A stretch of 26,387 nt of DNA from a virus: the IMG/VR virus record IMGVR_UViG_3300030098_004991, positions 1-26,387 of that record; one strand, written 5' to 3'. Shown here one piece after another: positions 383 to 26,365 of this stretch. The notes under the pieces are model-generated. The model did not search any database, was not told the DNA's origin, and saw nothing but the letters and a program-made list of their open reading frames with translations. The position numbers and the translations under genes were made by a program. Every line of letters begins with the position of its first letter. Position 1 is the stretch's first letter.

Positions 383-1033
383 ATGGGAATAAATTCAACA
401 GAAGTCGCATATGGCTTCGGACAATTAGGAAGTGCTTACTCTGATATAGCTCAAGTAATAGTTCCACCAAAAGATCACGTTATTGTTGCTATTCATTTTT
501 TAGCTGATAATGTACCAACTGTTTTAACTCCAGAAAAATTAGATGGTTCTGGACCTGGATATATTCAAATAGGTTCTACTGCTAGTGATGAACACACCGC
601 GGCTGATAATTATTTTAATTTCAATGGAGTGTTTAGTAGCGATGTTTCAAATAGTAGTTCTCAAAACACAGCAACATTAAGTACTTCAGGTGCTGGAAAA
701 GTTAAAGTTGGACAATACGTGTTATTAGTAAACAATGATGCTCAGGCTGATGGTAATCCAGCTATGGTTATTGACTCTGAGACACCTACTCCAATATACA
801 CTGGACCAGGTGCTCGAGGAGTTAAAGTAATTGCTTTTGATGGCACGACAGGGGTAACACTATCTGGTAATATATCACCGGGTAATCAAACATTAGTGTT
901 TTTAGATGAGTTTCATGGTGCAGGTGGTATAACAGCTGCTTCGCAAACATTTCCAATAGGAACTACAATATACGGTAGATGGACAGAGTTTAAACCATCT
1001 GCAGCTGGTGTAATTTGTTATTTTGGAAAATAA
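383..1033 (+). CDS. Phage structural protein (decoration or fibre type), 216 aa
   Basis: A 216-residue protein, rich in Gly, Ser, Thr and Val and predicted mostly beta. It starts MGINSTEVAYGFGQLGSAYS and ends with IYGRWTEFKPSAAGVICYFG. I recall proteins with this N-terminus and the 'IYGRWT.F.PSA' ending from uncultured marine phages, where they sit among virion genes. Their exact role (head decoration, fibre or baseplate accessory) is not known to me. There is no signal peptide or membrane segment. The ATG follows an A/T leader with no Shine-Dalgarno. The TAA stop shares its last A with the ATG of the lectin-fold gene (TAATG), so the two are probably translationally coupled. Virion location is inferred from composition and neighbours. 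Confidence 0.6.
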   Translation: MGINSTEVAYGFGQLGSAYSDIAQVIVPPKDHVIVAIHFLADNVPTVLTPEKLDGSGPGYIQIGSTASDEHTAADNYFNFNGVFSSDVSNSSSQNTATLSTSGAGKVKVGQYVLLVNNDAQADGNPAMVIDSETPTPIYTGPGARGVKVIAFDGTTGVTLSGNISPGNQTLVFLDEFHGAGGITAASQTFPIGTTIYGRWTEFKPSAAGVICYFGK

Positions 1034-1941
1034 TGTTAGGAGGGAGATTAAATAGAAATATGAGGATGTATAATGCACCGGTCTCATATCCATATGGGAC
1101 TTGGAATCTTTCTCCAATAAATATACCTGATCTAATAGCTTGGTATGATTTTACAGATAGATCAACTCAATGGCAAGAAATAGATAGTTTTACTACTCAA
1201 GTTTCTACCAGTGGTAATCCTATAGGCAGAATTAAAAATAAGGCAACAGGTTCACATAGATTAGGAAATTTTTTAGCGGCTAGTAGTGATGGCGATAGAC
1301 CCACGTGGCAAAATGGTTACGCTAGATTTGATGGAAGTAATGATCACTTATTTGGAAAAGGTCAAGGCAATACTGGTGGGGTAGATGGAAATAATAGTGG
1401 TTTCTTTAGTGACGCGGAGATAGATCCCCATAATATAAGCATTTTTGCGATTGTGCACTCAGATGCAACAACTGTATTATCAGATGAAATAATTTGCGCT
1501 ATTAATGGTTTTTCTAAAAACGACAACGATGAACATATTGGTATAGCTTTAAAGCATGAATCTACTACTTCTGATCCATGTCTTGTTATTGATTACGAAA
1601 GTGAAACAAACGAAGAAATAAACTGGAATACAAATATGTCCACCGATGTTCAATATGTGGGTGTAACAGCTACCAGTGGAACTAATCAAGTAGCGCTATT
1701 TCTTAATGATGGTTCTGACGGACAAGGTACGATTACCAATTCTGGTGGTCGCGTTTTAGAATTTATACATGCTAACAACGGGTTTTGTATTGGGGAGGCA
1801 ACAACTGGTAGCACAGGAACAGTAGGATTAATGAATTACGATGGAGATATTGGTGAAATACTTGTTTATAATAGAACTCTTAATAAAACAGAAAGAATAG
1901 AAGTAGAACGGTATCTTAACGATAAGTATTCTATATGGTAA
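1033..1941 (+). CDS. LamG/concanavalin-like lectin-fold structural protein, 302 aa
   Basis: A beta-rich 302-residue protein. After a short N-terminal linker, residues 34-42 read LIAWYDFTD and the C-terminus (271-302) includes GDIGEILVYNRTLNKTER followed by a VERYLNDKYSIW end. This pair of landmarks, an aromatic 'W.D' opening and a 'G.IGEI.VYNR.L...ER..VE.YL..KY' ending, is characteristic of LamG/concanavalin-A-like jelly-roll domains in phage tail fibres and bacterial surface proteins that bind or process glycans. No catalytic glycosidase signature is visible, so receptor or polysaccharide binding is the likelier role (inferred). I chose the ATG at 1033, which overlaps the preceding stop as TAATG, over an in-frame TTG at 1015 that would add six residues. 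The gene ends 32 bases before the next start. Confidence 0.68.
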   Translation: MLGGRLNRNMRMYNAPVSYPYGTWNLSPINIPDLIAWYDFTDRSTQWQEIDSFTTQVSTSGNPIGRIKNKATGSHRLGNFLAASSDGDRPTWQNGYARFDGSNDHLFGKGQGNTGGVDGNNSGFFSDAEIDPHNISIFAIVHSDATTVLSDEIICAINGFSKNDNDEHIGIALKHESTTSDPCLVIDYESETNEEINWNTNMSTDVQYVGVTATSGTNQVALFLNDGSDGQGTITNSGGRVLEFIHANNGFCIGEATTGSTGTVGLMNYDGDIGEILVYNRTLNKTERIEVERYLNDKYSIW

Positions 1942-13547: not shown

Positions 13548-16500
13548 ATGCCAGAAATAAAACATGAATTTTCTGCTGGGAAAATGAATAAAGATCTCGA
13601 TGAGAGATTAGTTCCCAATGGCGAATACAGAGACGCCATGAATATACAAGTCAGAACAACCGAGGCTATCGAAGGTTCTGGTAATGCTGGTACTGTGCAA
13701 AATATAAAGGGAACTAAACAAATTGAAACCGCGAAAATAGACAATAGTATTCCATATATTTTTTATCAAGATGGATCAGGTGATTCAAAAGTTATTGGTA
13801 GTATAGCTAATGAAAAAAATAATACAGCATATTTTTTCGTAGCCTCTCCTCCTTTAGAAAAATTTATAACCAATATTGCGGCTATTAATGGAGAACGACA
13901 TCTCATGGATGTTATTGCTGAAGTAAACACTGGTACTGGCACAAGTGATCCAACAGCTCTTCCAGTTGTTGTTGATAGGTGGGCTACTATGAATACATAT
14001 ATTAACGTTGTAGGCACAATCGAAAACACTGTTACTCCTGTTGGTGAAACTTGGATTCAGTTTAATATTCGCAATGGATGGAAATATAGACCTGGTATGA
14101 CTATATCAGCATATGACAGTCTTGGTAACAACCTATTTAATGAAGGAGCGAAAATACAAAATATAACATCTGCTCCAACTTCCCCACCTACTTGGACCGT
14201 AACTCTATATGATGAACAACCACAAGTTCAGTGGAGTAATATTGCTGCCTTTGTCTTTTTAGCACCAAGAACCTTAAACTTTGACTATGAAAACAAAATA
14301 ACTGGGATAAATATTATTAATGATTTACTTTTCTGGACAGATAATCAAGGTGAACCTAAAAAGATAAATATAAAAAGAAGTAAAGCTGGTTCTCCATCTT
14401 GGGAAACACACACCAGGCTAATGTTAAAGGATCCAAAAGACGACGACTTATTAGTAAGATATGTAGATTCTGATAACAATGATATATCTGGTTTAGATTC
14501 TAATATTGTTAGTGGAGTAGAAGATGCTATGTTTCCAATAGTTAATAATGCTTTAAAAGAAAGACACATAACTGTTAAGAGAAAAGCTCCATCAATGGCA
14601 CCAACTATCCACATGAGAAGGTCTGATAGAGAAAATGAGGCAACAGAGGTGAATGATGGATTTTTTGATTTTTGGCAGTATGATTCAGATGGTCCTACGC
14701 CAGGCGATCAAATAACAATGCCCAATGTAAGTAATGCTAATACTGACGCGTTCATGTTTAATGATGTGGATTATAGGGTTAATGATATATTAAGTTTTAC
14801 ACCATCTAGTGGTGCTGATGTTTGGATAACAACTATTATTGACGACATTAATCCTATAGATTGTTCAACAGAGGGTGAAAACGTAGATTATCTAGAAGGA
14901 ACTACTTGTGATGATTATGATGGAGCTGTTATAATAAATATGACAATACTATCTGTCAACGGTACTATACCGGCACCATCATATAGTTCTTCAGGTATAG
15001 TTTTAGGATCTAATCAACCTGGTTTATGGGATATAACATTAGAACAACGCAAACCTTTATTTGAATTAAAATTTGGAAGATTTAGTACTAGATATAAATA
15101 TGAAGATGGAGAATACTCTAGTTTTGGACCTTGGTCTGAAATAGCATTTTTACCAGGATCATTTGATTACACGCATAAAAAGGGTTATAACAAAGGTATG
15201 GCGAATCAAATGAGGGAACTTATTATTAAAGATTTTATACCACATCAAAGAGTTAGACCTGACGATATGGTAGCAGTTGATTTATTGTACAAAACAACAG
15301 ATAATCAAAATGTCTATGTTGTAAAAACTATAGCTAGAGGAATAGATCCTGAATGGGATTTATTTACAACAAATTTAACAAACACTAGTTTGGCTTTTGG
15401 AGAATTATCCATAACAACAGAGATGATACACAAGGTTTTACCAGCCAATCAACTGTTAAGAGCTTGGGATAATGTACCTAAAAAAGCATTAGGACAAGAG
15501 ATAGCAGCTAATAGACTTGTTTATGCTAATTATGAACAAGGTTATGATTTAAAAGATTCCGTTGGATTAATACAATCTATTAAAAGTAGTGAAGTTGGTG
15601 GTCCAGATAGTCCTAAAAAATCTGTAAAAACTATTAGAGAGTATAAATGGGGAATGATTTTTGGGGATAAATATGGTAGAGAAACTCCAGTTGTTGCACC
15701 AGGATACATAACCGGAGATAGTATAGATAACTACACTTTACTATCTGGAGATGTTTCTGTAGAAAAAAGATTATCTAGATTAAGCAATAAGTTTGAATTA
15801 ACTCAAAATTGGGACAATCCAGCTAATGAGGGCGGTGAACCAGAAAGTTGGATGGACTACGTTAAATACTATGTTAAAGAAACATCGAATGAGTATTATA
15901 ATCTAGTAATGGATAGGTGGTACTACGCGGATGACGGTAATATATGGTTGTCATTTCCTTCTGCTGATAGAAATAAAGTTGATGAAGAAACTTATTTGAT
16001 ATTAAAAAACGCTCATGGTAATGATGACAGTGTTGAAGAAAAAGCTAGATATAAAATCATAGCGATAGAAAACGAAGCTCCAGATGATATTAAAACTAGA
16101 GCTAGAAATCTAGGTAAAATACCTCTCACGGGTGCCACGTTGAATAACTCTCCCTATCAATTAAGTTGGATAATGGGTGACAACTCTGATCCTACTACTA
16201 GTGTTCCACAAGGTATAATGGAAGGATTGGAATTCCGTGTGTCTGATGAGGATTGGCCTGATATATTAGAAAATTTTGAAATACCTAATGAAACAGGTAA
16301 TGAAAGAGGAGATGTACAAGTTAGATTTGGCGCAACAGTTGGTACTAGTGATAAAGACGGTTTATCATGGAGAACACTGTCTGTTTTTTCTGTTGGTAGT
16401 ACTAGTACTTATATGAAATGGGACGATGCATTCGGAAGTGATGTAAACATGTATGATATATTTAGCAACGCTGGTATTAGTACTCCATTTGAATCTATAG

Positions 16501-19500
16501 ACTACTATTTAGAATTACAAGAAATAGTAACAAAAAATTTAGCTGAATTTGATGGCAAGTTTTTTGTTAAAATAGAAAAAGATCAAGTATTAAAATCTAA
16601 AGTATTAAATTTTACTGGAGAAAATGTTGATTATGAATCTTACAAAACTATAACACTAGCTTATATAGAAAACACAGAGGTAAATCCGTCTAGTAATGAA
16701 GATTGTGAATATTGTGATAATACTTACATGCCAAGAAGGAACTATCAATGGCTTGATGATGATACTGTTCCTGCTGTAACATCTGGTGGTGTACTTAACG
16801 CTGGTTTAAATAACGTAGAAGCTGTAAATATTTGGGACGATGGTAATCAATGCGAGGGAACCTCTGGAACTGGTTGTTCTCCTGTTGACGCTATATATCT
16901 TGCTTTAGGATGTTTTGGTGCCGATCAAACAGGAGGTGGTTATGGTGTGGTTGGTTCTAGTGAAAACATTATTAATAGAGCCGAAGAAACTAGAACATTC
17001 TGGTGGTGGTTCAAAGAGTACGCTTCACCTAATTTATCAACAGAATATCTTACAGGAGAAAATCTACCATTTATTGATGGAGCTAGAACTAGATATACTT
17101 GGCAGGAAGGATCATCTTGGATTTGTGATGATGAAGTTGACGCATCTGGTAACTGCTTAGGTAGTGGCCCGGGAACCGGTACTAACGCGGGTAAATATCC
17201 TGCTGATTATTACAAGAGAACAGGGTTGGATCAAGGTGTGTTATATGATCCCGAAGAAGATCAAGGTGAAGGTGCGTTTAGCCCAACAGTAGATGGTGAA
17301 CTTGGTAGAATAGCAATATCAGTGTTGAGTAGAGGTTCTGGATACAGCTGGAATCTTAGTGGTTGGGGTAATAATAACAGTCAAGCTTGGATACTTCAAG
17401 ACAAAATGACACAGCAGGGTACTTTGTTTAAATTTGATGCAGATCCAGAAAGAGATGAATTTGGTAATCCACCTATATACAAAATAGTAAGTTCTTCCAC
17501 TCAAGTAGAGTGGGCAACTGATATAAGAAACTACTCTGTTAATAATGATGAACCATGGCAGGAGTGGCAAGATGTTAACTTTGGTCTTGATTTTTTTGGT
17601 TTCCAGTGTTATCCTGAGGGTGATATTGGCGGTGAAGTTATTGTTGATGGTCAGTGTAATAATTTTCCAATGCAATTTTGGGAACCTGGTTGTCCTTTTT
17701 GTGATATAGAAAACGAATGGGACGTCATGGATTTTACAAATGAAAACACAGCACATCCAGCTGATGCTGATGGCGATGAAGGAAGCATAAGGGTTGGCGG
17801 TTTAATTGGTTCTACATCTGATTACTTTGATACATGGAATGATTCTTACTGTAAAAGATGTGGTACTATTGCTCAAAATCTAGGCTTTTTTTCTCTTGCT
17901 GATATACCTCAATACTGTCAACGAAAAGGATTTAGAGTTGAGTTTAGAAGAATAGATACTTCAACTGGAGATTTAATGGATCAAGGTACTAGAGGTATAA
18001 ATACTGACGTTTGGGATCCTAGAGGTGTTGTTTGTCATGATGGTAGAGAAGCTTTAAATATTTCTCTTGTAAAAGAAAGTATTAGTGGTGGTGAAGTAAT
18101 TATACCAATTGATAATGCTGCTGTTTGGGAAACAGAACCCAAAGAAAACGTTGGTTTAGATATTTACTATGAAGCATCTAATGCTTTCCCTATGAGACTA
18201 AATAATGAAAATACTTTAAATTTTGTTCCATATAATTCTAAAGTTACTTTGAAGAGATGGGTTGATGGTGAAGCTCCTGGTTACGTTAACATTGATCTTA
18301 CTAATTTAGATCACCATGTTTCTCGAGTTGGATATACAACAGCCACTTCTGTGATATCAATATCATCAACATTAGATCAAACATTTTTAGATGCTTCTGT
18401 TCAAGTTTCAACTGGTTTACATACTGATGATATACAAGTAGGAGACTTTTTAGTATTTGAACACCCAGATGGCACTAAAACAATGTCTAAGGTAACACGG
18501 TTCATGAAGAAACTACCTGGTTACCCTTTGGCATCACTTGATTTTCCGTCCTTCGAACCTAATGTACAGGAGACTGTATTTAAAGAACAAGATCAACTTG
18601 ATGACAATGGAGATCCAATAAGAACTGGACACTATGAAATAGATTCTGATGTTTACAAATACCCAATAGAGTTAGCATGGTTTAACTGTTATTCATTTGG
18701 TAATGGTGTAGAATCTAATAGAATTAGAGATGATTTTAATGCACCAACAATAAATAATGGTGTTAAAGTTTCAACAACATTTTTAGATTACGGTCAAGAA
18801 AGAAGAACTAGTGGAATGATATATTCAGGTTTATATAACTCATCTTCAGGTGTTAATGATTTGAATGAGTTTAATATGGCTGAAAAAATAACAAAAGATA
18901 TAAATCCATCATATGGCGCTATACAGAGATTAAAAACTAGAGACACAGATATTGTTATATTTACTGAAGATAAAACGTTAAGAGCAGTAACAAATAAAGA
19001 CGCTTTATATAACGCGGATGGTAATCCTCAATTGGTTGCTTCAAATAGAGTTCTTGGTACAGCTGTTCCATTCTCAGGTGATTTCGGTATGTCAAACAAC
19101 CCAGAGTCTTTAGCGTGGGATCAATATAGATTGTATTGGACTGATATGCAAAGAGGATCTGTATTAAGATTATCTCAAAATGGAATAACACCTATTTCTA
19201 ATGTTGGAATGAAAACTTACTTTAGAGACAACTTAAAGAAAACAAATAGCTTATTAGGTACGTTTGATGCTGTAAATGGTGAATATAATTTAACACTAGA
19301 TTATAAAGTTAACGAAGGGAGAGATACAACTTTATCTTTCAACGAGGGTTCAAAAGGTTGGGTTAGTTTTAAATCATTTATACCTCAGAGTGGACAATCA
19401 GTTGGAGGTAAATATATCACCGCGGCTGCAACAAACTCAGCAAGTGCAGGATACAGTGGATTAGCTTTATGGGAGCATCATGTTGATATAAGAAAAACAG

Positions 19501-20093
19501 ATAGTACTGCTGCTAATTATAATGAGATTATAAATAGAAACGTGTTCTATGTTAGTAACACTGATATTCAAGCAGAGGGTTTAGACATGGAAAGCGGTCA
19601 TACCAATTCAACAATAACCATGTTGTTTAATGACATGCCTGGTTCAGTTAAATCTTTTAACACAGTAAACTATGAGGGTTCACAAGCTAGAGTTAATAGA
19701 TTTTTAAATTCTAATACTGAACAACCTGGTGTAACCACGCCAGATGGCTCGCAGTTTACCAATCAAAATGATAATGAATATTACAATTTACAAAATATTC
19801 CTGGTTGGTGGGTTAGTCGAATAACAACTGATTTATCTCAAAAAGGATCTGTTCATGAGTTTAAAGAAAAGGAAGGTAAATGGTTCAACAAAGTTGATGG
19901 AGATGAAAGAGGAGAAATAACAAATAAAGATTTAAATGAATTTAGTGTTCAAGGATTAGGTAAGTTACCAGCTAATCCAAACTATACTGACGATGAATTG
20001 AATCAAATACAAATTCAAATTACTAGTGACATGATAGATGACGATAGTAATCCATTCTTCCCTAACGCTGATAATAATGCTTGGAACGAATAA
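13548..20093 (+). CDS. Giant tail nozzle/muzzle-type protein, 2181 aa
   Basis: The N-terminus, GKMNKDLDERLVPNGEYRDA (11-30) followed by MNIQV and AGTVQNIKGT, is the hallmark of the large tail (stabilisation, nozzle or muzzle) proteins of crAss-like and marine podovirus-type phages. NDLLFWTDNQGEPKKINIKR lies near residue 257, and a similar strand motif, DQYRLYWTDMQRGSVLRLSQ plus ITPISNVGM, near 1856-1885. In relatives such WTD blades belong to a beta-propeller-like body, so the two ends may fold together. Between them is a very long region holding a Cys/Trp/Gly-rich stretch (about 1050-1440) with three CxxC motifs: CEYC 1053-1056, CPFC 1382-1385 and CKRC 1435-1438. The tail-tube role is inferred from family; the insert's role is unknown. 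No enzyme motif is recognised. Confidence 0.77.
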   Translation: MPEIKHEFSAGKMNKDLDERLVPNGEYRDAMNIQVRTTEAIEGSGNAGTVQNIKGTKQIETAKIDNSIPYIFYQDGSGDSKVIGSIANEKNNTAYFFVASPPLEKFITNIAAINGERHLMDVIAEVNTGTGTSDPTALPVVVDRWATMNTYINVVGTIENTVTPVGETWIQFNIRNGWKYRPGMTISAYDSLGNNLFNEGAKIQNITSAPTSPPTWTVTLYDEQPQVQWSNIAAFVFLAPRTLNFDYENKITGINIINDLLFWTDNQGEPKKINIKRSKAGSPSWETHTRLMLKDPKDDDLLVRYVDSDNNDISGLDSNIVSGVEDAMFPIVNNALKERHITVKRKAPSMAPTIHMRRSDRENEATEVNDGFFDFWQYDSDGPTPGDQITMPNVSNANTDAFMFNDVDYRVNDILSFTPSSGADVWITTIIDDINPIDCSTEGENVDYLEGTTCDDYDGAVIINMTILSVNGTIPAPSYSSSGIVLGSNQPGLWDITLEQRKPLFELKFGRFSTRYKYEDGEYSSFGPWSEIAFLPGSFDYTHKKGYNKGMANQMRELIIKDFIPHQRVRPDDMVAVDLLYKTTDNQNVYVVKTIARGIDPEWDLFTTNLTNTSLAFGELSITTEMIHKVLPANQLLRAWDNVPKKALGQEIAANRLVYANYEQGYDLKDSVGLIQSIKSSEVGGPDSPKKSVKTIREYKWGMIFGDKYGRETPVVAPGYITGDSIDNYTLLSGDVSVEKRLSRLSNKFELTQNWDNPANEGGEPESWMDYVKYYVKETSNEYYNLVMDRWYYADDGNIWLSFPSADRNKVDEETYLILKNAHGNDDSVEEKARYKIIAIENEAPDDIKTRARNLGKIPLTGATLNNSPYQLSWIMGDNSDPTTSVPQGIMEGLEFRVSDEDWPDILENFEIPNETGNERGDVQVRFGATVGTSDKDGLSWRTLSVFSVGSTSTYMKWDDAFGSDVNMYDIFSNAGISTPFESIDYYLELQEIVTKNLAEFDGKFFVKIEKDQVLKSKVLNFTGENVDYESYKTITLAYIENTEVNPSSNEDCEYCDNTYMPRRNYQWLDDDTVPAVTSGGVLNAGLNNVEAVNIWDDGNQCEGTSGTGCSPVDAIYLALGCFGADQTGGGYGVVGSSENIINRAEETRTFWWWFKEYASPNLSTEYLTGENLPFIDGARTRYTWQEGSSWICDDEVDASGNCLGSGPGTGTNAGKYPADYYKRTGLDQGVLYDPEEDQGEGAFSPTVDGELGRIAISVLSRGSGYSWNLSGWGNNNSQAWILQDKMTQQGTLFKFDADPERDEFGNPPIYKIVSSSTQVEWATDIRNYSVNNDEPWQEWQDVNFGLDFFGFQCYPEGDIGGEVIVDGQCNNFPMQFWEPGCPFCDIENEWDVMDFTNENTAHPADADGDEGSIRVGGLIGSTSDYFDTWNDSYCKRCGTIAQNLGFFSLADIPQYCQRKGFRVEFRRIDTSTGDLMDQGTRGINTDVWDPRGVVCHDGREALNISLVKESISGGEVIIPIDNAAVWETEPKENVGLDIYYEASNAFPMRLNNENTLNFVPYNSKVTLKRWVDGEAPGYVNIDLTNLDHHVSRVGYTTATSVISISSTLDQTFLDASVQVSTGLHTDDIQVGDFLVFEHPDGTKTMSKVTRFMKKLPGYPLASLDFPSFEPNVQETVFKEQDQLDDNGDPIRTGHYEIDSDVYKYPIELAWFNCYSFGNGVESNRIRDDFNAPTINNGVKVSTTFLDYGQERRTSGMIYSGLYNSSSGVNDLNEFNMAEKITKDINPSYGAIQRLKTRDTDIVIFTEDKTLRAVTNKDALYNADGNPQLVASNRVLGTAVPFSGDFGMSNNPESLAWDQYRLYWTDMQRGSVLRLSQNGITPISNVGMKTYFRDNLKKTNSLLGTFDAVNGEYNLTLDYKVNEGRDTTLSFNEGSKGWVSFKSFIPQSGQSVGGKYITAAATNSASAGYSGLALWEHHVDIRKTDSTAANYNEIINRNVFYVSNTDIQAEGLDMESGHTNSTITMLFNDMPGSVKSFNTVNYEGSQARVNRFLNSNTEQPGVTTPDGSQFTNQNDNEYYNLQNIPGWWVSRITTDLSQKGSVHEFKEKEGKWFNKVDGDERGEITNKDLNEFSVQGLGKLPANPNYTDDELNQIQIQITSDMIDDDSNPFFPNADNNAWNE

Positions 20094-20108: not shown

Positions 20109-22730
20109 ATGTCGGTAAATTACACAGTAACAAGTTTTGAAGTAGAAGTTAGTGGAAGTTCTCCATGGGGATTGCAAGATATTGGTTCATACACGCCTGA
20201 TACGAGTATTTTATCATATAATGATTACTCGTGGATTCCAAATTCTGACCCAGATGCAGGAGTAGTTCCATTGAGAATGACTATATCACCAATAGATCAA
20301 TCTACATATACTGTTTCTGCTGCTAATTTTAGCATGAGAGGTTATTCGTATAATGAGGTTGAGCAAAGTTTACCAATAAATGGATTTACTTGGCTTGCTG
20401 AATCTTTACCAGAAGGCGCTTTACCAGAGGGGGTTGTTAAAGTAACGTTTACCGATACAACTATAGCTGGACAAGTTGGGAATCAAGTGGAAGTTAGAGC
20501 TTGGTTGGATGCATCTTATATGACACCCTTTGTTAGTCAAAACATAACATTAGATATAGATGGTGATGCAGATTTACTTGAAACCCCTCCACCGCAGTAC
20601 ATGTTCTTTGAGTGTCCTTCAATAGTTAACGAAGGAGACACTATAACATATTATCTCATGTACAACAATATGCCTGAGGCTATACCTGGCGCAAACACTA
20701 ATTTTGCTAATGATTACATTACGTATTTTTGGTATATTGACACAGACCAATCAACTGTAACTGGAGGAGATTTAGATTTTGAAGATGAAGATAGTTTATG
20801 TGATCCAAATCTTGAATCAGGTTATGCTTATACAACTGGTACATCTTCTGGTGGAGCTGGAGTATCTGAATTTACTATTGGAGCGTGTATTGATGGAGAG
20901 ATAGAAACTCAAGAGCAAATAACTGTTTGCTTAGAACCATTTGATAGTTATAATATACCAACGGGTGGTATGTGTTGTACTACTTATATTTCGTCAATAG
21001 AAGAATACGTGTATGGCTGTACAGATCCATCAGCACAAAATTACGATCCTAATGCAACTATGAATCAAGTTAGCGATAGTGATACCACTAATCCATGTAT
21101 ATACGAGGGTTGCACTGATCCTAATGCGCCTAATTATAATCCTTTTGCAACAATTGATGATGGTTCGTGTGAACAATCTTATAGTTATGGAATAAGATTA
21201 AGAGTTGATCCAGATTTAGGTTTAGAAGTTTTTACTCCTCCAGTCTACACGTGTGGTGGATCTTGGCAAACACCGGGTACTTCCTCGGGGGCTACTGACT
21301 CCTTCAATGCCAATATTAATCAAGACGCTGGATATTATAGATATCAAGGACCTAATGGCGAAGGTTGTGATACTTATTATACATTATATGGTTCATCAAC
21401 TGATGATCCATACTGTGGAAGTTTTGTCCACCCAGATCTTGGTGAGTCTTGTTGTTACTCTTTCCATGAACTTGGTTATTTACCTGGCACGACGACAGAC
21501 TATGGTTCAACCGAATCAATGACATCAGGTGGAATGGTTAAGTACTGGAATATTGGTCCTAGTGGACCAAATAACGAGTGGGCTTCATTTACAGTGGATG
21601 TTATGGGAGGAAATGCGTATAATATAGATCAAGCAGCTATAGGAAGGTTTAAGCAAGCTTTTATTATAAAACCAAAACCAGGTTTTACCTTATCTAGACA
21701 TAATTTAAGACCAGAGCCAGGTTCTATAGCTTTAACCAGCGAGCGATTAAATAATACAGAAGGAAATAGTTTTCAATACAATCCAGGTGAAGATATAGTA
21801 GAGGGGGGTGTTGAGGAATTTGCACCATTTGGACAAAACCAAATTGAATGGTTCAACTATGGTACTCACACTAATGCTGGTTATGGTTCTAGTGCAAGTA
21901 GAGATGGTAACGCAATAGATACAACAGCTTGTTATTGCTGGAGAATAGATGTAGATGGCACCTATCTTCCTGCTCCAGATGGAGGACCTTGCGAAGAATA
22001 CAATCAGTATAAACCTAAATCACCATATCCTTTATCCTCAAACGATTATAGTCCTTGGGGAGCCCCTTTAAATCATTATGAAATTCATACTAAATATTTA
22101 AACGTTAAATATCGTTTTTTTGATGCAGATGATAATCAAATAGGGGAAGATCAAGAGGTGCCGGTAAATTTAGGAGATGCAAATGAGGATGGGTGTTATG
22201 ATGAAGATAGGGGTTGGGACGGATTAGACAAGAGAGTAAGCACCATACCAAATGCAGATTGCGTTGGAGGGTACGGATCTTTTTGGGAAAATAAAGTCGT
22301 AAGATTACATGACTCTTTATTCCATTATACTGGATCACCCATGACTGGAGATGCTATGTTAGATGATTGTGATAGTTGTCTTCCAGTTCTTATAGATAAT
22401 TGGGGTGATCTCACCGATACAACAACGTTGACAAATATTCAAAATCTAAATAGTCTTCAAGACTTTGAAATGGAAACAGCTTATGGGGTTGGTTTTGAAT
22501 TAAACACACTTTCTATTGGCCAAAATTTCGGACAAACTACTAACTTTGGAACAGCTTCGGATTGGGATGGGAACTTTGTCTTTGTGAGACTTGATAATAT
22601 TCTTGAAGATATAATACCTGCTTCAATTCCAAATTTAGCTTATATAGAAGTGAGAATACTAGGGGCTGCAATGCCTTTAGATGATAGTGACGAAGGAACA
22701 TTAGAATTTAACGTTTCAGTATCAATTTAA
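20109..22730 (+). CDS. Large tail/fibre-type protein with GCTDP repeats, 873 aa
   Basis: A beta-rich, Gly/Asn/Tyr-rich protein with no signal peptide. Residues 1-155 form a domain also present in the next gene (MxVNY start, P...YTV...F...G, then NITLDIDGDADLLE). Residues 303-354 hold two Cys-bearing repeats, GCTDPSAQNYDPNAT and GCTDPNAPNYNPFATIDDGS plus a final Cys, a motif common in secreted proteins of marine Bacteroidota. Residues 524-533 read PGFTLSRHNL and the C-terminus carries GAAMPLD (852-858), both shared with the neighbour. I do not recognise an enzyme domain. A cell-contact or fibre-like virion role is inferred from composition, size, repeats and location after the giant tail gene. 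Cysteine content is high for a phage structural protein. Confidence 0.6.
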   Translation: MSVNYTVTSFEVEVSGSSPWGLQDIGSYTPDTSILSYNDYSWIPNSDPDAGVVPLRMTISPIDQSTYTVSAANFSMRGYSYNEVEQSLPINGFTWLAESLPEGALPEGVVKVTFTDTTIAGQVGNQVEVRAWLDASYMTPFVSQNITLDIDGDADLLETPPPQYMFFECPSIVNEGDTITYYLMYNNMPEAIPGANTNFANDYITYFWYIDTDQSTVTGGDLDFEDEDSLCDPNLESGYAYTTGTSSGGAGVSEFTIGACIDGEIETQEQITVCLEPFDSYNIPTGGMCCTTYISSIEEYVYGCTDPSAQNYDPNATMNQVSDSDTTNPCIYEGCTDPNAPNYNPFATIDDGSCEQSYSYGIRLRVDPDLGLEVFTPPVYTCGGSWQTPGTSSGATDSFNANINQDAGYYRYQGPNGEGCDTYYTLYGSSTDDPYCGSFVHPDLGESCCYSFHELGYLPGTTTDYGSTESMTSGGMVKYWNIGPSGPNNEWASFTVDVMGGNAYNIDQAAIGRFKQAFIIKPKPGFTLSRHNLRPEPGSIALTSERLNNTEGNSFQYNPGEDIVEGGVEEFAPFGQNQIEWFNYGTHTNAGYGSSASRDGNAIDTTACYCWRIDVDGTYLPAPDGGPCEEYNQYKPKSPYPLSSNDYSPWGAPLNHYEIHTKYLNVKYRFFDADDNQIGEDQEVPVNLGDANEDGCYDEDRGWDGLDKRVSTIPNADCVGGYGSFWENKVVRLHDSLFHYTGSPMTGDAMLDDCDSCLPVLIDNWGDLTDTTTLTNIQNLNSLQDFEMETAYGVGFELNTLSIGQNFGQTTNFGTASDWDGNFVFVRLDNILEDIIPASIPNLAYIEVRILGAAMPLDDSDEGTLEFNVSVSI
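21015..21170 (+). repeat. Two GCTDPxAxNYxPxAT coding repeats
   Basis: Copy 1 covers 21015-21059 (residues 303-317) and copy 2 covers 21108-21170 (residues 334-354), separated by a short linker with one Cys. The protein repeat is clear while the DNA has drifted, with different Gly, Cys, Pro and Asn codons, so this is not a recent DNA duplication. Confidence 0.85.
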
Positions 22731-22743
22731 TAAAATTAATAAC

Positions 22744-24651
22744 ATGCCAGTAAATTATAATATAGTAACGAATCCATTGTCAGTTGATCCAAATGTAACG
22801 TGGGGACAAGCTCAAGATAATTTAGGAATAGGACCATACTATAGTTTAACAGCTATTATATATCCTAATGAAGGATATACTGTTAACATGGATGACTTTA
22901 CGATAGCTGGTCAAGAACCAACATTAATACTACCAGCTCCTTTTGGTCCTAATTTTCCTAATAGCTATGGAGTTAGAACGTGGCAAGCTAATAACATATT
23001 TGGCGAGAATGCTACGTTGCCAATAGGTGTAATGAGTGTTCAATTAGCTAATTCAAGTGAAAACGCGGTTAATAATCCAAATAACACTGTGTTGGTGCAT
23101 GCATCAATAGATCCTCTTTATCAAATAAACGATAGTGATATTACTATGACTATAGATATAGATGGAGACGCATCTGAATACATAGATTTTAGTATAGGTG
23201 TACAATCATGGCACATACCAGTTAGATTAATATTAGAAGAAGATAGTAATTTAAGAGTATGTACTGGAATGCAGTACGCTACATTTCCTACTTTTAGCGT
23301 GGCTCCTTATACTAGTATTTCTCCTGATTACGAACCAGAATTGGGACAAGGATTTCCAAATGATACTGTACTTATGTGGAATTGGTTAGACGCTCCTGGT
23401 GTTGCTAACAACTGGATAGGATCATATAATCCAAGTGTTTGGATTGCAAGTGTGGCGGCAGGATTAGCCCCAGAAACATGGAAAAATGCTTGGTTTATAT
23501 TTCCAGAACCTGGCTACTCTATTTCTAGACATAATTTAAGTTTTGAATTTAAATTTCAAGACGTGTTAAATAGCCCGAATAACATAGCAGGTGCGAATGT
23601 AAATACTGGAAGTGGAACTATAACCCAAGGTATCCAATATTGGTTAGACACATGGGGTCCAGGTAGTAATAATAATCCAGGTATATTATCTGCAGATGAA
23701 GTAATAAACCAACTTAATACCGGTGTTTTAATACCGGGCACAGGAATAGATGGAACTATAAATCAACAAGAATTAATAGACATTGGATCAGGTAACCCAA
23801 TGATTCCAAATGGACAACTACATTGGAGAAGGCATGGGAATTGGGGATGTCGAAGCGTGTTATGTGACCTTGCCACAAACACCCCGGGTATTGAGATCAA
23901 TATGGGTTGGGATCAACGATGTTCACGTGGTTGTTATGGAGTAGAAAACCCTAATCCCGATATATACGAAGGATTTTGGCCAGATCCATCGTCCACGCCA
24001 TGTGATGAAAATAATCCGATTACAGATCAAATCCCTGAGACTTATTTGAGTGGTTATGGAACATGGGAGGAGTATGGAGCATCCGGGCAAGATCTTATTG
24101 ATAGTGGTGAGTGTGGTTGTGGAGTAACAGAAACGTATTATTCACCATCAGACGCCTTCTATGGCTTTGGTGGTGGCCCATCTCCATCTTTAGGATATAC
24201 ACTGTATAAATACGTTCACTGGGAACAACATGATCCAAATGACCCTACTCAATTTAAGTATCTTCAAGGCACTGTTCAACCTCCTGGATCGTATAGTAGC
24301 AATAATGCTAATTTTACAAACAAGATAGCGTTAGCTGATAATAAACCAGGTTTACCACTAGAATGGGATTCTAGTTACAGTAACGGCCCACTATTAAATG
24401 ACAATAATTATCCAAATAATGGTTATTTTAACGAAGATACAGCTAACCCTAATGATTATATAGGTAACTATATAAGAGTGTTTGTAAAAGGACATTTTTT
24501 TAGAAACTCTTTAGAATGTCCAAATTGTGAAATTCACGTTAAACTAAAAGGAAAAGCAATGCCATTAGATCCTGTTGAAGAAAATGTTAGCACCGGTTTT
24601 GAAGTTAATATTACAGCTGGTCCTGGTCCAAGTTCAAATCAAGCGAGTTAA
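22744..24651 (+). CDS. Tail/fibre-type protein, paralogue of the preceding gene, 635 aa
   Basis: Same architecture as the 873-residue neighbour but shorter and without the GCTDP repeats. The N-terminal domain (1-145) shares MxVNY, YTVNMDDFTIAG, LPIGVMSV and ITMTIDIDGDA with it. PGYSISRHNL (256-265) matches PGFTLSRHNL, and KGKAMPLD (602-609) matches the neighbour's GAAMPLD near the C-terminus. A Cys-containing region at about 370-465 (WGCRSVLCDLA, CSRGCYG, GECGCGV) may form disulphides or bind metal. No catalytic domain is recognised. A tandem duplication followed by divergence is the simplest reading, with both proteins probably exposed on the tail. It starts 13 bases after the neighbour's stop and ends 12 bases before the next gene. 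Confidence 0.58.
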   Translation: MPVNYNIVTNPLSVDPNVTWGQAQDNLGIGPYYSLTAIIYPNEGYTVNMDDFTIAGQEPTLILPAPFGPNFPNSYGVRTWQANNIFGENATLPIGVMSVQLANSSENAVNNPNNTVLVHASIDPLYQINDSDITMTIDIDGDASEYIDFSIGVQSWHIPVRLILEEDSNLRVCTGMQYATFPTFSVAPYTSISPDYEPELGQGFPNDTVLMWNWLDAPGVANNWIGSYNPSVWIASVAAGLAPETWKNAWFIFPEPGYSISRHNLSFEFKFQDVLNSPNNIAGANVNTGSGTITQGIQYWLDTWGPGSNNNPGILSADEVINQLNTGVLIPGTGIDGTINQQELIDIGSGNPMIPNGQLHWRRHGNWGCRSVLCDLATNTPGIEINMGWDQRCSRGCYGVENPNPDIYEGFWPDPSSTPCDENNPITDQIPETYLSGYGTWEEYGASGQDLIDSGECGCGVTETYYSPSDAFYGFGGGPSPSLGYTLYKYVHWEQHDPNDPTQFKYLQGTVQPPGSYSSNNANFTNKIALADNKPGLPLEWDSSYSNGPLLNDNNYPNNGYFNEDTANPNDYIGNYIRVFVKGHFFRNSLECPNCEIHVKLKGKAMPLDPVEENVSTGFEVNITAGPGPSSNQAS

Positions 24652-24663
24652 AATTAAAATACA

Positions 24664-25944
24664 ATGAAAGATACTTTAAGAAATAATAATGAAATAGAAA
24701 TCTTAGGAAAAAATGGCAGATTGGTTACTAAAGAGACAATTCGCTCGGGTTTTTCTGATGAACAAAAAGTGTTTAAAATAAAAGGTAGAGTCGCAAAAGG
24801 TAAACCAACAATTATTGGTAGCTTAAAATTAACTGCGGCGCAGAATAGAAAATTTTTGAAAGCTCCAAATTTAAAACGAAACAAATCAAATAATATGTTG
24901 GGATTGGATAGCACTTTAAAAATGCGTAAAACAGGTGTAGACAAAGATGCTAATAACAATATAATAGCTTATTCGTACGACTTAATATATACCGGTAAAG
25001 AAACCACTGGCAAAGCAAAGGTATTAAAATATGATTTAATAAATAATTCAAGTAAAATTATTAATAAAATAAATGGAATAGATAAAATTGAAGTTGGTAA
25101 AAGTCTTATTAATAGTCAAGGTGAAAAAAGAAAAATAACTATTAAGGGATATCCTAATACTAATTTTAAGTTAGCTATAAATAAGGTTGATTTCTCTGTA
25201 GATAATAATAATAACTATAGAATTGTTGATACATTTGAATCATCTATATTAAAAGAAAACGTATATAACTCTACTCATAATACGCATGAAAAAACTATAG
25301 ACATAATTAATGGTTATCTAAATAAAGATGGTAATTTTTCTTTTATTCAAAAATTTGACAAAGTAACCTCTTTAAGTAGATACAATATACGTTTTTATCC
25401 ATCGGTTGTTTCTAGAAGATTTAAACCAGCTGGATGGTTTAAAGGCGATCGTGGATGGGAGGATTATTATACCAAAACATTTGTTCAACGTATAAATCCT
25501 ACTTTAACGTTTAGAGTTACTAAAACAAATAGCAACTATGGTATTAATGGTGGAGCTGTTGGTGTACACACTTATGATGATTTGTTTACTGGTAGTTATA
25601 GAGGAAATATAAGTGCGAGAAATTCATCTACATTTACATTAACGTATGTTTTACAAAGTAGTAGTGCAAAAACACTTTCAACATCTTCAGGAGCTAGTGG
25701 TGATGATTTATCGGGAACAAGAGGATTACCAGTTTTTTCTAATACAGATTCAAGTGCATCTGATTGGACAAATTCTGTTTCCACAACAAATGGTGAGTGT
25801 CATGTTGATATAAATAATATTGCTGCTACTGGGTCTGGAACAACAACATACACATTAACACTTAATGTTGATATTAAGAATTTTGGAACAAGAGATACGG
25901 TTATGGCATTAGACTTAGATGACGTAATAAATGTGTCTGCATAA
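24664..25944 (+). CDS. Structural protein of unknown function, 426 aa
   Basis: A Lys/Asn-rich, mainly beta protein with no signal peptide or membrane segment. The N-terminal third (about 1-90) is basic (VFKIKGRVAKGKPTIIGSLK, then AQNRKFLKAPNLKRNKSNN). The C-terminal 120 residues are Ser/Thr/Gly-rich, ending TYTLTLNVDIKNFGTRDTVM, as in many phage fibre ends. LSRYNIRFYP (237-246) resembles the LSRHNLRPEP and ISRHNL motifs of the two preceding proteins, hinting at a third, diverged member. I do not recognise a named family. A virion or tail accessory role is inferred from composition and the surrounding genes. It starts with an A/T leader (TTAAAATACA) and no Shine-Dalgarno. Confidence 0.5.
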   Translation: MKDTLRNNNEIEILGKNGRLVTKETIRSGFSDEQKVFKIKGRVAKGKPTIIGSLKLTAAQNRKFLKAPNLKRNKSNNMLGLDSTLKMRKTGVDKDANNNIIAYSYDLIYTGKETTGKAKVLKYDLINNSSKIINKINGIDKIEVGKSLINSQGEKRKITIKGYPNTNFKLAINKVDFSVDNNNNYRIVDTFESSILKENVYNSTHNTHEKTIDIINGYLNKDGNFSFIQKFDKVTSLSRYNIRFYPSVVSRRFKPAGWFKGDRGWEDYYTKTFVQRINPTLTFRVTKTNSNYGINGGAVGVHTYDDLFTGSYRGNISARNSSTFTLTYVLQSSSAKTLSTSSGASGDDLSGTRGLPVFSNTDSSASDWTNSVSTTNGECHVDINNIAATGSGTTTYTLTLNVDIKNFGTRDTVMALDLDDVINVSA

Positions 25945-25960
25945 TTTAAATAAATAAAAA

Positions 25961-26365
25961 ATGGCTGAAATAATACTACAACTTCCTTACCCCATAAACG
26001 TTTCTTGTCAAACTGGAGACATAGCTTATTACATAAACGCCGGCAACACTGTTGGAGGATTTTCAGTTAATCCAATAACAGAAGATATAACTGAAATAGG
26101 TGTTATAAAACAGATATGTCACGGAACAATTAACAATGGTGTATGTAGTGAAAACGAAAACTCTCTTCTTGTTCAAATTTTGTGTGAAATAAATATTAAT
26201 ACGGCACTTCCTACTTTTAATGATTTCATATTATTTGCTAAAGATAGGTCTGTTAATGAATCCTCAATACTTGGATATTATAGTGAAATGGTTTTTGAAA
26301 ACAACTCGCGTAGTAATGCTGAGTTATTTGCTGCTGCCGCTGGAATATCAGAAAACAGTAAATAA
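25961..26365 (+). CDS. Small conserved virion-module protein, 134 aa
   Basis: A 134-residue protein starting MAEIILQLPYPINVSCQTGD, with four cysteines (C16, C40, C48, C62 approximately) and a C-terminal block DFILFAKDRSVNESSILGYY (81-100), then SEMVFENNSRSNAELFAAAAGISENSK. Short marine-phage proteins with this 'FI.F.KD...N.SS.LGYY.E......S...AELFA....ISESSK' ending are familiar to me from structural regions, with no established role; a small head or tail accessory is likely. The gene follows an A-rich leader (AAATAAAAA) and is the last in the window, with 22 bases after the stop. Confidence 0.58.
   Translation: MAEIILQLPYPINVSCQTGDIAYYINAGNTVGGFSVNPITEDITEIGVIKQICHGTINNGVCSENENSLLVQILCEININTALPTFNDFILFAKDRSVNESSILGYYSEMVFENNSRSNAELFAAAAGISENSK

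Follow-up and report, generated by a model that had tools for sequence, protein, structure and literature searches.

The window (the whole stretch of DNA analysed, a virus record of 26,387 bases) is a podovirus late region from a virus infecting bacteria, in which two related, fast-changing proteins, referred to here as P1 and P2, are encoded inside a tail gene that is broken into pieces. These proteins probably help the virus to grip its host. With somewhat better than even confidence, we read them as variable subunits of an adhesion cassette linked to the muzzle, the tail protein whose gene is broken, and as candidates for receptor contact with a presumed location in the virion.

Late gene order and the detached end of the muzzle

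The window terminase shows 63% identity to that of MW202828, an uncultured spring phage, and 46% to those of the Flavobacterium elemo phages, and it also matches Cellulophaga phages of the phi38:1 kind. The genes follow the order terminase, portal, capsid and tail genes, a muzzle homologue of 2181 aa, P1, P2, P3 and P5. From the muzzle to P5, neighbouring genes are separated by 12 to 16 bases (13 bases between P1 and P2). The relevant features are as follows:

13548..20093, + strand: muzzle body, 2181 aa, without the C-terminal domain of cultured relatives (phrog_14478, E = 6.6e-107; crAss_MUZ_C, E = 0.0017, below the curated cut-off)
19605..19895, + strand: stretch matching crAss_MUZ_C near the end of the muzzle body, residues 2020-2116 (sub-threshold match)
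20109..22730, + strand: P1, 873 aa, expanded D1-D2 slot protein (ORF; relatives' profile)
20109..20582, + strand: P1 domain 1 (D1), Ig-like beta-sandwich, residues 1-158 (profiles, AlphaFold)
21015..21170, + strand: two GCTDP-type Cys repeats of P1 in the D1-D2 linker, residues 303-354 (sequence)
21630..21728, + strand: first half of P1 domain 2 (PGFTLSRHNL), residues ~ 508-540 (profiles)
22554..22727, + strand: second half of P1 domain 2 (GAAMPLD), residues ~ 816-873 (profiles)
22744..24651, + strand: P2, 635 aa, D1-D2 slot protein (ORF; relatives' profile)
22744..23184, + strand: P2 domain 1 (D1), residues 1-147 (profiles, AlphaFold)
23464..23559, + strand: first half of P2 domain 2 (PGYSISRHNL), residues ~ 241-272 (AlphaFold, profiles)
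23848..24120, + strand: Cys-rich stretch of P2 within the domain 2 insertion, residues 369-459 (sequence)
24454..24618, + strand: second half of P2 domain 2 (GKAMPLD), residues ~ 571-625 (AlphaFold, profiles)
24664..25944, + strand: P3, 426 aa, partner domain, joined to D1 in one polypeptide in most relatives (profiles, loci)
25961..26365, + strand: P5, 134 aa, C-terminal muzzle domain, detached (P5 profile against muzzle ends)

The gene upstream of P1 was named a crass-type muzzle because the profile of its family (four sequences) matches crAss001 gp44 (hhalign E = 2.2e-5, probability 76, 222 columns) and because crAss_MUZ_C is present, well above the cut-off, in the homologues from phi38:1 and elemo (1.1e-18, 67.9 bits, and 1.2e-17, 64.6 bits, respectively); in the window protein itself, the same model scores 19.2 bits against a curated cut-off of 27 (E = 0.0017). 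The profile of P5 matches the muzzle C-terminus of phi38:1 (residues 1221-1323 of 1324, E = 1.1e-13), of elemo (1365-1470 of 1470, E = 1.2e-17) and of locus L037 (2281-2414 of 2414, E = 9.7e-33), and P5 is also the last muzzle domain in one further contig, L148, of the set of loci anchored on P5. When aligned with phi38:1, the window muzzle stops close to the start of the P5 domain. The muzzle of the window is broken before its P5 domain, with a slot holding P1, P2 and P3 between the body and P5.

Two further observations concern small genes. Behind the muzzle or the P5 domain, cultured and uncultured relatives encode a small gene (L002:24710-25108, L003:16423-16848, L004:15202-15612), which carries an acetyltransferase subunit annotation in MW202828; those of L002 and L003 are unrelated to P5, P3 or D1. 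At the start of the window (383-1941), small proteins of 216 and 308 aa are encoded, for which Pfam and NCBIfam gave no match. The 308-aa protein, for which no PDB relative was found by sequence, may be lectin-like.

Homology of P1 and P2 and their doubled Ig-like domain

The first question is whether the two neighbouring proteins are related at all. An earlier sequence-only reading had described proteins of 873 and 635 residues at 20109-24651 that share a series of motifs in the same order; these coordinates and lengths are exact, and every motif was found, namely MSVNY/MPVNY, YTVSAANFSMRG/YTVNMDDFTIAG, LPEGVVKV/LPIGVMSV and IDGDA in both, followed with the order kept by PGFTLSRHNL/PGYSISRHNL and then GAAMPLD/GKAMPLD. 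The uneven decoration described there is equally real, with two GCTDP units in P1 (residues 303 and 334) against none in P2, which has its own Cys-rich region (ten Cys, seven of them within residues 369-459). BLASTP of P1 against P2 returned three collinear pieces (E = 1e-4, 1e-3 and 0.011), the best of 31.6 bits, a score reached by 0 of 1000 P1 shuffles. A profile built from the single-copy proteins of five relatives (L087, L088, L089, L091 and L006), from which both P1 and P2 were left out, recovered both proteins with their blocks in order (E = 1.9e-25 for P1, 1.9e-16 for P2); the region after D1 alone gave 7.8e-12 for P1 and 1.1e-7 for P2, and 0 of 500 shuffles in each case scored as high. 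Chance likeness among beta-rich phage proteins, in whose favour the weak direct pairwise score could be cited, is ruled out for all practical purposes by the five-relative profile and the shuffles, and by these measures P1 and P2 should be regarded as true homologues.

Both proteins contain D1, PG[FY]xxS[RK]xN and G[KAS]AM in this order and lie between the muzzle and P5, adjoining P3, as members of the D1-D2 slot family do. Clear homologues of the two genes were also found in related genomes, among them L087 to L091 (obtained via P5 anchoring), which encode single proteins of 443-617 aa with the P1/P2 frame. P3 had also been considered as a third paralogue, with SRYNIRF and MALDLD taken as the same frame, and was rejected as such: it belongs to a separate domain family, of which 54 stretches were collected by iterated profile search.

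The frame shared by P1 and P2 consists of two copies of a single Ig-like beta-sandwich domain. Copy 1 (D1) is formed by the N-terminal block, and copy 2 (D2) is divided into two halves, PG[FY]xxSRHNL and [KA]AMPLD, by a large insertion (~ 280-300 residues in P1 and P2); P1 adds a long Cys-rich linker between D1 and D2. The D1 profile also finds a second region in L007 (E = 1.4e-6 and 1.4e-5), L006 (2.9e-5) and L005 (0.002), where the E-values refer to a set of ten proteins. Moreover, the central block (alignment of P1, P2 and L006) aligns to D1 columns 32-54 with an hhalign score of 26.4 against a permutation maximum of 13.7, and the terminal block (five-protein alignment) aligns to columns 84-120 with 23.8 against 15.1 (100 column permutations each); the two blocks fall in register on the two ends of D1. 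With the D1 profile alone, D2 was not found in P1, where 193 of 710 control ORFs score equally high. For P1, the second copy is based on the five-relative profile together with the joint profile of the block alignments.

AlphaFold models of P1 and P2 have a confident D1 core (block pLDDT 81-95, loops lower) with the same strand order, so the shared N-terminal domain proposed in the sequence-only reading holds, the two folds not being different. In the model of P2, residues 249-275 show the strand pattern of D1 residues 35-54, and both ends of the second copy are predicted as well. The insertions and the linker have block pLDDT values of mostly 25-45 and no resolved structure. In L005 (13670-17993), both slot proteins carry an insertion of ~ 185 residues in domain 1, at the loop that corresponds to the insertion site in domain 2 of P1 and P2.

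In database searches, P1 and P2 had no match reaching threshold in Pfam, PHROG or NCBIfam (none in Pfam at E up to 1), the D1 and P3 domain families matched no Pfam or PHROG entry, and no match in PDB, Pfam, PHROG or NCBIfam gave a binding or enzymatic function. A tblastn search of 50,697 phage records found no relative of P1 or P2, and single-sequence scans of IMG/VR with the two proteins were empty because only distant relatives exist; relatives were obtained by anchoring on the muzzle and on P5. In structure searches at E of 0.001 or better, neither model matched a PDB entry, and the P2 model matched nothing in BFVD. The N-terminal domains are predicted to be beta-rich, and their best neighbours include fimbrial Ig-like subunits at Z ~ 3.4-4.2, which is below the level separating relatives from a common arrangement; the absence of a fold match does not show that the fold is new.

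The slot in related genomes and the origin of the pair

Slot architecture was compared in two sets of loci, one of 80 muzzle-anchored loci, of which 50 hold both the muzzle end and P5, and one of 80 P5-anchored loci, of which 77 were usable (3 were without a muzzle). The profiles were trained on the first set, and five contigs, by contig name, are common to both. D1 and P3 form one gene in 21/50 loci of the first set and 45/77 of the second, and separate genes in 5/50 (L005 and L009 with two D1 genes) and 7/77 (one being the L005 contig, with two D1 genes). P3 occurs without detected D1 in 12/50 and 9/77 loci and D1 without P3 in 2/77, while D1, P3 or both are borne by the muzzle in 5/50, and muzzle-borne forms account for 7/77. 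The order of the slot is not fixed, since the P3 gene follows P5 in 4/50 loci, in one of them with P5 fused to the muzzle; the second set includes one locus with P3 after P5 and one in which P5 is fused and P3 follows. The cassette is not universal in the group, since neither D1 nor P3 was detected in 3/50 and 5/77 loci, nor at the slot position in phi38:1 or elemo. Tandem D1 genes are rare, as across both sets they were seen side by side only in the window, L005 and L009. A further split point is found in L032 (17877-19693), where the D1 and P3 protein is broken within P3 into 257 and 345 aa.

In the muzzle-anchored set, 7 loci have GCTDP-type repeats near the muzzle C-terminus, and the only other occurrences are in slot proteins (window and L026). 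The muzzle proteins of L036 (10001-18691) and L083 (10164-17885) carry five or six such repeats near the C-terminus. A literature search for GCTDP as a motif word found no paper.

How fast does the slot change in comparison with its surroundings? Between the window and L006, identity is 90% for the terminase, 80% for the capsid, 73% for the portal and 69% for a 297-aa tail protein, and 43% for the muzzle, 42% for P5 and 28% for P3; the alignable length is 6% for P1 and 9% for P2. We also compared 61 pairs, which are not independent, from 18 loci of the one-gene form with capsid identity of at least 70% (the eight rows of L078, a copy of L072, were left out). Median identities were 74 for the capsid, 61 for the 297-aa protein, 45 for the muzzle, 43 for P5, 36 for D1 and 29 for the remainder of the slot protein, with D1 higher than the remainder in 55/61 pairs. 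By these identities, the slot is the fastest-diverging part of the late operon, and such divergence can also stem from relaxed constraint. Within the proteins, comparison with the three closest single-copy relatives gave 43-54% for D1, 50-58% for the centre and 59-64% for the C-terminus, against 32-56% for the linker and 37-50% for the insertion. The expectation that the middle varies faster than the shared blocks is therefore supported (frame 43-64%, linker and insertion 32-56%), clearly in two of the three pairs, and together with the models this agrees with the view of a conserved frame carrying variable middle modules.

Another question is how one genome came to hold two such genes. The pair had been described as duplicated; homology holds, but the tree does not place P1 and P2 as sisters, and duplication in place is unproven, a clade of the two not being rejected either (p-AU 0.267). 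The relationship of the two was not resolved in an initial tree built from D1 only. Alternatively, the second gene may have been acquired from a related phage, P1 and P2 then being two alleles of one slot gene, an origin to which we assign a chance only slightly short of even. The single-copy proteins of L087, L089 and L091 are the weakly supported neighbours of P2 (73/89), and P1 has its highest identity to L089 (35%) and not to P2; by contrast, copies pair together in L005, where they are sisters (98/97) and hence arose separately, and in L009 (17165-19236), where two tandem slot genes are 54% identical and look like a recent duplication independent of the window pair. Acquisition is weakened by the same p-AU value, by the long branches and by the highest identity of P2 being to P1 (31%). 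Such an origin is compatible with an adhesion cassette linked to the muzzle.

Possible role of P1 and P2 and comparison with known systems

The slot domains are tied to muzzle assembly by their repeated fusion to the muzzle and by the Cys repeats shared with the region near the muzzle C-terminus (7 loci), and a host-facing surface would suit their strong divergence, their modular insertions and the fact that they are occasionally multiplied. In the adhesion cassette, D1, which is compact and comparatively conserved, would dock on the muzzle or P3, while the diverged D2 insertion and the Cys-rich linker of P1 would face the host surface. The two versions could provide two specificities or a mixed assembly. 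What has been observed is the homology, the doubled domain, the position in the slot, the fusions in relatives and the strong divergence; that P1 and P2 are in the virion, sit on the muzzle, touch a receptor and confer dual specificity is inferred. For crAss001, the authors of the muzzle structure propose the distal muzzle domain as the part that touches the cell surface (PMC10172136); judging from the residue ranges given there, this cell-facing domain is an internal insertion from which the chain returns to the propeller. A C-terminal appendage therefore need not be at the tip and may sit on the flank. Of the "receptor-binding or fibre" system suggested in the sequence-only reading, receptor binding by P1 and P2 is plausible from divergence and position, whereas the fibre finds no support and the evidence points to the muzzle.

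A different explanation, which we consider rather unlikely, is that the slot proteins serve the muzzle structurally, as a spacer, clamp or plug, diverging under little constraint and playing no part in host recognition, the real receptor-binding proteins being fibres encoded outside the fragment. Fusion to the muzzle in relatives suits a structural role, no binding fold was found, and phi38:1 encodes an endosialidase-chaperone protein and a tail protein elsewhere. Nevertheless, P1 and P2 are less conserved than P3 and P5, which share their slot, and a surface role accounts better for swapped modules, decoration with Cys repeats and the presence of several copies. In its most far-reaching form, which we hold to be unlikely, the adhesion reading makes the muzzle a breakable polypeptide (body-D1-P3-P5) whose outer, hypervariable cassette has repeatedly been fused, split and multiplied, with two different D1-D2 adhesins forming a mixed tail end in this phage and giving it two host specificities at once.

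The adhesion cassette would offer a candidate adhesin for a large group of mostly uncultured phi38:1-related phages, encoded at a constant and readily located position between the muzzle and P5, which enables host prediction and swap experiments. It also presents a conserved tail protein broken at a domain boundary, making room for fast-changing modules.

Among known systems, phi38:1 gp97 and its Flavobacterium elemo counterpart share the order from terminase to muzzle, and P5 is their last muzzle domain; their muzzle of 1324-1470 aa (2181 in the window) is unbroken before P5 and is without D1 or P3 slot genes. The upstream gene is homologous to gp44 of crAss001 (Crassvirales), relatives of that gene carrying crAss_MUZ_C, but no D1, P3 or P5 was detected in gp44 and seven neighbouring proteins; Ig-like domains and variation through insertions are described for the crAss001 muzzle (PMC10172136). 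In the present system, by contrast, extra domains are joined to the muzzle or encoded downstream of it, and the terminal muzzle domain has a gene to itself. BACON domains of crAssphage are Ig-like tandem repeats adjoining tail genes in Bacteroidota phages, with a proposed role in host binding (PMC6949934); P1 and P2 match no BACON model in Pfam, and each has two copies of its domain, the second of which holds a large insertion. Tentaclins are variable phage proteins with Ig-like domains and proposed receptor binding, which, as described, start with a C-type lectin domain that a retroelement can vary (PMC10743442). None was seen in P1 or P2, whose N-terminal domains are predicted to be beta-rich. 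Zeta crAss-like phages are described with lectin and Ig-like fibres (PMC12386605). In the literature searched, with most subscription journals beyond reach, no split muzzle, slot, D1-D2, P3 or P5 family was found. The closest precedents in print are the muzzle itself, BACON repeats beside tail genes and Ig-like receptor-binding proteins.
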